A stretch of 64,000 nt of DNA, taken from contig NZ_QOCL01000001.1 in NCBI RefSeq assembly GCF_004006665.1, positions 248,001-312,000 of the forward strand. Direction: 5' to 3'. How positions within the stretch are numbered: position 1 is the first letter of the stretch; each line of letters opens with the position of its first letter. Below, piece by piece: positions 60,761-64,000 of the stretch. The notes under the pieces were generated by a model. It did no database searches. It was not told the origin of the DNA and saw only the letters and a list, made by a program, of their open reading frames with translations. Both the position numbers and the translations under genes were made by a program. The stretch is from Halobacteriovorax sp. HLS (GTDB taxonomy: Bacteria; Bdellovibrionota; Bacteriovoracia; Bacteriovoracales; Bacteriovoracaceae).

Positions 60761-61018
60761 CTACAGAGATATGATTCCTGGAATAACAGAAACCTTTTCA
60801 TAGAACTCAAGAACTTGCTGGGATGATTCGCAATTAACAGTAATACTAACAGAGGTATATTTACCATTTTTCGACGGCTTCTGTGTCATCACATATTTTG
60901 CCGTGAACTTTTCTAACGATGATAATTCAGAGGTAGGCACAATAAACTTGAACAAATATGGAGCTGGCCAAGTATATGACTCATCAAGCAATTCTTTTAA
61001 TTTTTCCATTGATTCCAT
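60761..61018 (-). CDS. DUF493 (YbeD-like) protein
   Basis: An 85-residue cytosolic protein with a ferredoxin-like ACT-type fold (YLFKFIVPTSE, SKNGKYTSVSITVNCESSQQVLEFY, IPGIISL). Its length and closing pattern match the YbeD/DUF493 family, whose role is unclear though proposed to be regulatory. The start follows GGAG. It is probably co-transcribed with gpsA. Confidence 0.85.
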   Translation of the reverse strand: MESMEKLKELLDESYTWPAPYLFKFIVPTSELSSLEKFTAKYVMTQKPSKNGKYTSVSITVNCESSQQVLEFYEKVSVIPGIISL

Positions 61019-61139
61019 AACGTAACTCCAACTAATTAGCTCAACTTTTATAAGATATGGTTTTCATAGAGTCAAGGCTAAGACTTTAACATTTAACTAA
61101 TTTCAATAGTTTCCGATGAGAATATATCGAGGAAAAATT

Positions 61140-62219
61140 GTGAAAATACTTATACTGATTTTAGTTTCAATTTCTAATTGTTATGCAAGTGATTACTTAA
61201 GCTTTGCCGATTTCTTAGAGAAAAATCCAGGTCAAGATATTATTCATCAAAACTTCTCTAAACAAGTAAGGCAATCATCGGTAAAAATAAAGAAAAATCA
61301 GCAAAAGAAAATAAAAATTTCGATAGTCTACCCTGGCAAGCAAATTTCAGATTACTGGAAAAGAAGTGTTAAGTCTTTTAAGCTGAGAATGGATGAGTTG
61401 AATATAGACTATCAAATTGAAGAATTTTCTACCGAAAAAAAACAAATTAGAGAACAGGCAAAGAATATAAAAAAATCTTTAAAAGGAAATCCTGACTACC
61501 TTGTTTTCACTCTTGACTCTAATAAGCACACCAAACTAATTTCTCAGATACTGGAGCAAAGAAAGACAAAACTCATTTTACAAAATATTACAACTCCTAA
61601 GAAAATGTGGCTAGAGAATCCTCCTTTCTTGTACGTAGGGTTTGATCACGAAAGAGGAAGTCAGCTACTTATTGAAAGGTTAGAAAAATCCTTCCCTAAT
61701 GGGGGTAGATACGCAATGCTCTATTACACAGATGGCTATGTAAGTAAAATGCGAGGCGAAACAGTCATCAAGAAGCTTAACAAGAATAAAAAATGGACCC
61801 TCTTAGGAAAGTACTACACGGACGGAAAAGAAGAAAAAGTTAGAAAGGCCCTAATAGATCTAACAAAGAGAGAAAAGAATATAGACATACTTTTTACTTG
61901 CGCAACAGATATAGCAATCACTTCGGAAAAATTTGAAAAAGAAAGAAATTATAACTTCTTTATAAATGGTTGGGGCGGTGGAAGTGCTGAACTAGAGAGC
62001 ATAACTAGTTCAAAAAAGAATGGAATTGATTACACTGTAATGAGAATAAATGATGATAATGGTGTAGCAATGGCAGAAGCAATAAAGTTAGATATAGAAA
62101 ATAAGTCTCACTTAATTCCAAAAGTTTTTTCTGGAGAAATGGTCATTATTGATAAAGAGACTACTATAAATGAACTTAATTCACTGAAAGCTCGCTCCTT
62201 TAGGTACTCTGATAAATGA
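61140..62219 (+). CDS. luxP: LuxP-like periplasmic autoinducer-2 (AI-2) receptor
   Basis: About 359 residues starting at GTG, which follows GAGG with 7-nt spacing; an in-frame ATG at 61116 lacks a ribosome-binding site. The signal peptide ends SNCYAS. The two-lobed periplasmic-binding fold shows strong similarity to Vibrio LuxP across its length (YPGKQISDYW, ILQNITTPKKMW, YVGFDHERGS, MRGETV, TDIAI, INGWGGGSAELES, VMRINDD, ending FRYSDK). Residues matching the AI-2 contacts of V. harveyi LuxP are kept: Gln68, Ser70, Trp73, Asn149, Arg205, Thr256, Asp257, Trp278, Arg302. Its stop codon overlaps the start of a LuxQ-like kinase gene. Confidence 0.9.
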   Translation: MKILILILVSISNCYASDYLSFADFLEKNPGQDIIHQNFSKQVRQSSVKIKKNQQKKIKISIVYPGKQISDYWKRSVKSFKLRMDELNIDYQIEEFSTEKKQIREQAKNIKKSLKGNPDYLVFTLDSNKHTKLISQILEQRKTKLILQNITTPKKMWLENPPFLYVGFDHERGSQLLIERLEKSFPNGGRYAMLYYTDGYVSKMRGETVIKKLNKNKKWTLLGKYYTDGKEEKVRKALIDLTKREKNIDILFTCATDIAITSEKFEKERNYNFFINGWGGGSAELESITSSKKNGIDYTVMRINDDNGVAMAEAIKLDIENKSHLIPKVFSGEMVIIDKETTINELNSLKARSFRYSDK

Positions 62220-64000
62220 AGAAAGACTATAACCTATCCATACTTTTAGGTTTCATTATACTTATAACTAACTTTATAGTTATTACCCCTATACTATTTC
62301 TTCAGTATCAATCTTCGTCATCAATTTTTAGAGAAAACTTAATTAACAACTTCGACGAAGAATTTAAACTTTCCAAGCTATTTTTAGAATCAGAGTTTTC
62401 AAACCTACATAATCAAACTAAACGTGTTTCAGAAAACCTCTATATAAGAGAAAGCCTCGAGAGTAATAATGAAAGTAAAATCAAAAAATCTCTTGAAGAT
62501 GCATACAATTATGACTCCTCTAGCGACTTTCTTGCACTTTCATATGAAGACGATAGGAAAATAATAGATGTTAGTATCAATATTTTAGAAACTAATGAAG
62601 TTCTTAGTAACTATATAAAAAATTATCACGAAAACAGAAGTTCTCTTATATCATATAAAGGACTACTCGTTTATTTTACAAGTCATCCAATTACTAGTCA
62701 TGCAACCGGGCGAGTTCTAGGAACACTTCATAGTGGATTACTTTTAAATAAAAATACAGATTTAACGACTAGAATTGCTGAAAAACTAACCCATAAAACA
62801 TTTAATATTGTTTATGAGAAAAGGCTTATATCTGGAACAAGACCAATCAAACAATCCATTCTTGATAAAATACATCCTTTGAATGAAAAAGAGCTTATAC
62901 CTATTGAAAATAAGATCTATTACAAATCAATACTAAATATCAGCAACGTAAAGCTAGAGCTTCTTTTTATCTCTAAAAAGAATATAATTCAAAACCTTCG
63001 CGTCTCATTTTTAAAGACTTTTCTTTTTACTATTATTATTACAATAATATTAAGTATTTCAGCTGCAACAATTGCAAACAAGTCGTTATTACCTCCTCTA
63101 AATAGACTACTTGCATATCTAGAAAATTCAATAAAGGATGAAGAGTTAAAGATTCATCACCGAAGTACTATCAAAGAATTTAATCTTATCAGCGATAGCT
63201 TCTCTACTGTTTTTGTAAATTTTCAAAAAAAGAAAAATCAACTGTCTCGCTATATAGAGTCCTCAAATCTTCCAACACTTATATGGGATAAAGACCACAA
63301 GCTTCTCCAATACAACGACTCAGCTCAGCTACTTTTTGGGATAAAGAAGAATAGAGATAATATTGTAAATGACACTCTTCTTTCAAAATGCTTCAAGCTG
63401 AGCCAGCTCATTGAACAGGCCCAAAGAGGCGAACAGATTAATAATGAAGAAGTTATTTTTAAATCATTTGATGAATGGAAGTACACTTCATGGACTATGA
63501 GTTATGATCCAGAGGAAAAAACTTATTTTGCACAATGTTTCGATAACACGGAAAAAGTTCATGCCAGTAAAAAAATTGAAGAAGAAAGATCAAACACGAT
63601 TCATAATCAAAAGCTAGCAGCTCTTGGTGAAGTCGCGGGAAGTATTGCTCATGAAGTAAATAATCCAATGGGTGTTATTTCCCTATCACTAGCTCTCTTA
63701 GAATCTGAGCTTAAATTGATAAAAATGGAAGAGACTAAGGCAAATATAATTAAGTCCTATTTAACAAATATCGATGATTCTGTTCAAAGAACTACTACAA
63801 TAGTCTCTCACTTTTTAGACTTTTCTAGAGATTCCAAAAAAGATAAACAAGTGGTGCGAGAAGTTAATCAGATAATTAAAAAATCTCTTATTTTCATAGA
63901 AGAGAAGGTTAAAAGAAAGAAGATATCACTTAAGCTTAAGATTGAAGATGGTAGTCAATGCTTCATAAAGGAAACTCAATTTTCACAAGTAATGATTAAT
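62216..64000 (+). CDS. luxQ: LuxQ-like sensor histidine kinase (3' end outside window)
   Basis: The frame stays open for 595 codons to the window edge. The ATG overlaps the luxP stop codon (ATGA). A transmembrane helix lies near residues 8-30, then a periplasmic domain (about 31-260, with GLLVYFTSHPITSHATGRVLGTLHSGL), a second helix near 265-287 and a HAMP-like stretch. A PAS-like domain begins near 345 (LPTLIWDKDHKLLQYND). HisKA has the phospho-His at about 479 in GSIAHEVNNPMG. The ATPase domain is cut off, and whether a receiver follows cannot be seen. The luxPQ arrangement is the same as in Vibrio. Confidence 0.88.
   Translation, partial: MKKDYNLSILLGFIILITNFIVITPILFLQYQSSSSIFRENLINNFDEEFKLSKLFLESEFSNLHNQTKRVSENLYIRESLESNNESKIKKSLEDAYNYDSSSDFLALSYEDDRKIIDVSINILETNEVLSNYIKNYHENRSSLISYKGLLVYFTSHPITSHATGRVLGTLHSGLLLNKNTDLTTRIAEKLTHKTFNIVYEKRLISGTRPIKQSILDKIHPLNEKELIPIENKIYYKSILNISNVKLELLFISKKNIIQNLRVSFLKTFLFTIIITIILSISAATIANKSLLPPLNRLLAYLENSIKDEELKIHHRSTIKEFNLISDSFSTVFVNFQKKKNQLSRYIESSNLPTLIWDKDHKLLQYNDSAQLLFGIKKNRDNIVNDTLLSKCFKLSQLIEQAQRGEQINNEEVIFKSFDEWKYTSWTMSYDPEEKTYFAQCFDNTEKVHASKKIEEERSNTIHNQKLAALGEVAGSIAHEVNNPMGVISLSLALLESELKLIKMEETKANIIKSYLTNIDDSVQRTTTIVSHFLDFSRDSKKDKQVVREVNQIIKKSLIFIEEKVKRKKISLKLKIEDGSQCFIKETQFSQVMIN

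Follow-up and report, generated by a model that had tools for sequence, protein, structure and literature searches.

The window, a 64,000-nucleotide stretch of the genome of Halobacteriovorax sp. HLS, ends in two overlapping genes arranged in the order luxP-luxQ (Table 1). The genus consists of marine predators, among them Halobacteriovorax marinus (G002, L019), that attack vibrios and other bacteria (PMC10434201, PMC5760749), which agrees with the original prediction of a non-Vibrio marine predator of Vibrio as the host (PMC10434201). For luxP, the GTG codon at 61140 is preferred as the start: it is preceded closely by an AGGA motif, and the N-terminus that it gives, VKILILILVSISN, agrees with homologues, being the same in four congeners; the ATG at 61116 has neither an upstream AGGA nor a match to the congener N-termini. 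The start codon of the second gene at 62216 overlaps the luxP stop codon as ATGA.

Table 1. Genes and protein domains at the luxPQ locus, in window coordinates.
Feature	Position	Strand	Remarks
ybeD-like (DUF493) gene	60761..61018	-	left edge of the insertion site
luxP	61140..62219	+	has a signal peptide; predicted to bind AI-2 in the periplasm; starts at GTG, less likely at the ATG at 61116
luxQ-type membrane sensor histidine kinase	62216..64000	+	694 aa, L001:10216-12300; 300 nt more beyond the window end; no receiver domain
LuxQ-type periplasmic sensor domain, aa 45-258	62348..62989	+	between two membrane helices
Cytoplasmic PAS domain, aa 342-413	63239..63454	+	20.8 bits, just below the cut-off of 22.6
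HisKA phospho-acceptor domain, aa 470-538	63623..63829	+	H-box HEVNNP
ATPase domain (HATPase) of luxQ	aa 586-692	+	mostly beyond the window end

The assignment of the first gene rests on matches to solved structures, on the ligand pocket and on phylogeny. In a phmmer search against all PDB sequences, residues 25-366 match four V. harveyi LuxP sequences with E of about 1e-88, and nothing but LuxP falls below E 0.05, the next match having E 0.07. Nine AI-2-contact positions are identical to those of V. harveyi LuxP (Q77, S79, W82, N159, R215, T266, D267, W289 and R310). All but D267 and W289, seven in number, are named as hydrogen-bonding residues of the structure 1JX6 (PMC9687752). All nine, including both borate-facing arginines, are invariant in the five Halobacteriovorax species, even though identity between the species drops to 45%; with 103 of 335 LuxP columns invariant among the five, the probability that nine random columns are all invariant is about 2e-5. 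The LuxP family is separated from RbsB and TorT-type proteins at 100/100, so that the grouping with generic ribose-binding proteins that would have spoken against the original prediction is not seen, and a generic sugar-binding protein is ruled out by this separation together with the PDB matches. Judged by its sequence, this gene encodes a genuine LuxP, matching along its length and keeping all nine contacts as first described, and the contacts are kept in the other four species of the genus as well.

Three other Peripla_BP_4 proteins encoded in the same genome (L100, L102 and L109) were considered as additional AI-2 receptors and rejected, as they group with the outgroup, outside LuxP; no sensor kinase adjoins them in the stretch examined. 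Across the family, all nine contacts are kept in 80 of 85 LuxP sequences. The remaining five (L026, L050, L075, L089 and L065) carry Q77E, S79T or D267S, three of them being Campylobacterota proteins with Q77E or S79T, and such replacements may be a sign of changed ligand form or specificity. LuxP is a member of the sugar-binding protein superfamily, and this membership, along with the changes at Q77 or S79 in some campylobacterotal relatives, would be compatible with a LuxP that now binds something else, for instance a sugar or another polyol-borate, in which case the pair would report a prey metabolite instead of AI-2. This appears unlikely for Halobacteriovorax, where none of the nine contacts, the two borate-facing arginines among them, varies across the five species.

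The second gene was described in the original prediction as a membrane histidine kinase in the luxPQ order, and this description holds. The Pfam LuxQ-periplasm model scores the window protein at 17.5 bits, below the cut-off of 25.7, and one congener at 43.1 bits, above it. When the first 330 residues of the kinase are modelled with AlphaFold (18 sequences, pLDDT 84.5), the five best PDB matches are periplasmic domains of LuxQ from V. cholerae and V. harveyi, both LuxP-LuxQ complexes among them, with Z-scores of 16.6-17.9 and rmsd values of 2.4-3.1 A; other Cache-type sensor domains reach Z-scores of about 13-14 with larger rmsd. On the strength of this model, the gene encodes a LuxQ-type sensor. 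The cytoplasmic part consists of PAS, HisKA and HATPase domains, and a Response_reg domain is absent from the kinase in five of five Halobacteriovorax species, while V. harveyi LuxQ shows its receiver domain in the same kind of search. As a whole, the gene scores 140.8 bits with the NCBIfam LuxQ_Vibrio equivalog model, against a cut-off of 1200.

The two halves of the kinase have different relatives. The sensor half is closest to LuxQ-type sensors of Campylobacterota. For the catalytic core, kinases of the phylum to which Halobacteriovorax belongs are the best matches with up to 142-155 bits, while LuxP-linked kinases from other groups reach no more than 86. In a tree, the core groups with kinases of this phylum and is split at 100/98 from the LuxQ cores of Vibrio, alphaproteobacteria and Desulfobacterota. 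These comparisons are biased in favour of the phylum's kinases, which were chosen as best matches to the Halobacteriovorax core. The simplest reading is that a foreign LuxP/LuxQ sensor was joined to a resident kinase core, yielding an apparently chimeric kinase.

Both genes are present in five of five Halobacteriovorax species searched, always at the same place, flanked by ybeD and kdsC. The two flanking genes lie next to each other in four sister genera (L183-L186), which identifies luxPQ as an insertion at this position. Among 369 genomes of the phylum, luxP occurs outside Halobacteriovorax in one only, G096, a member of a second genus of the family, in which the locus (L177:8521-11579) lies at another location and pairs a luxP that keeps the nine contacts with a different LuxQ-type partner of 640 aa. 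In the sister genus g10, the ybeD-kdsC gap (L182:5318-7122) is occupied by the gene of a soluble PAS kinase and, convergent to it, one that encodes a solute-binding-like protein; the site may favour the insertion of sensory genes. The composition of luxP (GC 0.325, GC3 0.297) is near that of the neighbouring genes and thus gives no signal of recent import.

The origin of LuxP was addressed with a tree of 59 rows, the sampling being limited to the best 80 of 264 relatives. The five Halobacteriovorax proteins form one clade (100/99) inside a group (98/96) that also holds G096 and three Campylobacterota. Vibrionales LuxPs, together with that of Aliagarivorans, form a clade at 100/100 that excludes Halobacteriovorax, and a tree with the Halobacteriovorax proteins nested inside the genus Vibrio is rejected by the AU test (p 1.6e-5). 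The original prediction had raised the possibility of an acquisition from prey. In favour of a receptor pair taken from Vibrio and working as it does there are the predation of Halobacteriovorax on vibrios and the fact that LuxPQ was discovered in them. Such an origin is highly improbable given the rejected nesting, the Vibrionales clade without Halobacteriovorax, the best tree, which places this LuxP with Campylobacterota and the sister genus, and a kinase core split from that of Vibrio LuxQ; the lack of a receiver domain and of LuxU argues against the Vibrio mode of action. Less improbable is an ancient transfer whose donor was a relative not covered by the Vibrionales sample: placing the Halobacteriovorax LuxPs as sister to Vibrionales costs 15 log units against the best tree (AU p 0.069), so that this position is disfavoured but short of rejection. 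As far as can be read from these sequences, the history of this LuxP lies outside the genus Vibrio.

The signal itself would have to come from elsewhere. A search of the whole genome for luxS, luxU and luxO extended the earlier observation that the window holds no luxS: luxS is found neither in the Halobacteriovorax sp. HLS genome, which is 99.98% complete, nor in 58 relatives, with positive controls that worked. No match to LuxU is obtained at E 0.1 in this genome, although single-domain Hpt proteins of other kinds are present, and a LuxO query returns several generic NtrC-type matches (33-43%), none of them clearly orthologous. No response regulator adjoins luxPQ. The genome encodes an S-adenosylhomocysteine hydrolase (SahH), through which its methyl cycle runs and which recycles the product of that cycle without producing the AI-2 precursor. 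Barring non-enzymatic sources, the absence of luxS means that AI-2 must come from other bacteria. Routes to the precursor that bypass LuxS do exist, for example its non-enzymatic formation from pentose phosphates, and by such a route the predator might make AI-2 or its precursor and read its own density. With luxS missing from the genus and its relatives and a methyl cycle that uses SahH, this self-sensing is quite improbable, so that of the two sources originally envisaged, prey or self, foreign AI-2 is the likely one.

Several of these features have precedents. With the LuxP-LuxQ systems of V. harveyi and V. cholerae, Halobacteriovorax shares the nine AI-2 contacts, the overlapping luxP-luxQ order and the LuxQ-type periplasmic sensor; it differs in its kinase without receiver, its different core and its genomic location and, at the level of the circuit, in having no luxS, no detectable LuxU and no identifiable LuxO. 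A survey from 2008 regarded LuxPQ as confined to Vibrionales, while noting LuxP in luxS-negative Oceanospirillales (Neptuniibacter, Marinomonas) and delta-proteobacteria and raising the possibility of interspecies sensing (Rezzonico and Duffy, PMC2561040). Those bacteria share with Halobacteriovorax a LuxP without luxS and a non-Vibrio signalling partner, and listening to foreign AI-2 was already suggested for them; their LuxP matches are weaker and their partner is of another kind or missing, whereas Halobacteriovorax has a LuxQ-type sensor kinase in a predatory host. In Campylobacterota (Arcobacter, L038, L068 and L087), luxP likewise precedes a gene whose product is a LuxQ-type kinase of about 700 aa and not a hybrid, but these LuxPs branch apart from the Halobacteriovorax clade and the kinase cores are distinct. 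A survey from 2025 lists 267 LuxPs, mainly from proteobacteria, and reports AI-2 binding by three of three tested non-model LuxPs (PMC12268683).

LuxP is widespread among marine and sediment bacteria and commoner outside Vibrio than the original prediction, which regarded LuxPQ as chiefly a Vibrio trait, had assumed. The LuxQ-type sensors encoded after luxP are attached to kinases, both hybrid and simple, or to GGDEF, GGDEF-EAL or SpoIIE-type outputs; fusions to the last three are found in L037, L039, L026, L075 and L084. In Motilimonas (L051, L056 and L090), the gene after luxP encodes about 200 aa in place of a LuxQ-type sensor and is TetR-like in L051. That LuxP is not rare outside Vibrio and occurs in luxS-negative bacteria, as reported in 2008, is therefore already known. 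The literature consulted, chiefly outside subscription journals, contains nothing in substance that links Halobacteriovorax or Bdellovibrio to LuxP; the predator setting, the genus-wide presence and the apparently chimeric kinase are new.

Taken as a receptor pair, luxPQ of Halobacteriovorax probably serves for reception only, detecting AI-2-producing neighbours or prey. LuxP, exported to the periplasm, would bind borated AI-2 released by other bacteria and dock on the LuxQ-type sensor domain, which, by analogy to Vibrio, would shift the balance between kinase and phosphatase activity. LuxP evolves fast, with 45% identity between species, and its interface with LuxQ may therefore differ. As there is neither an attached receiver nor LuxU, phosphate would most likely pass from the kinase directly to a separately encoded, unlinked response regulator. 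The kinase core is unlike that of Vibrio LuxQ, for which reason the direction of the response to AI-2 should not be assumed. By this path the predator could register whether AI-2 producers, be they neighbours or prey, are around, or how dense they are. Many of the bacteria that Halobacteriovorax attacks, vibrios and others, make AI-2, so the likeliest use would be to sense prey or the community at large. The fuller picture, in which a predator keeps a genus-wide receptor for a signal beyond its own synthesis, mounts the LuxP/LuxQ sensor on a home-grown core and detects prey or prey density through AI-2, is put forward more tentatively, as a possibility that falls a little short of an even chance.

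Prey recognition by intraperiplasmic predators is still an open question, and a receptor whose family has a known ligand, encoded in one operon and with a known pocket, makes one form of it accessible to direct test, namely whether AI-2 from prey alters growth or the behaviour of attack-phase cells. For the family, LuxP and the LuxQ sensor emerge as a portable sensory module that is placed on many outputs, well beyond Vibrio.
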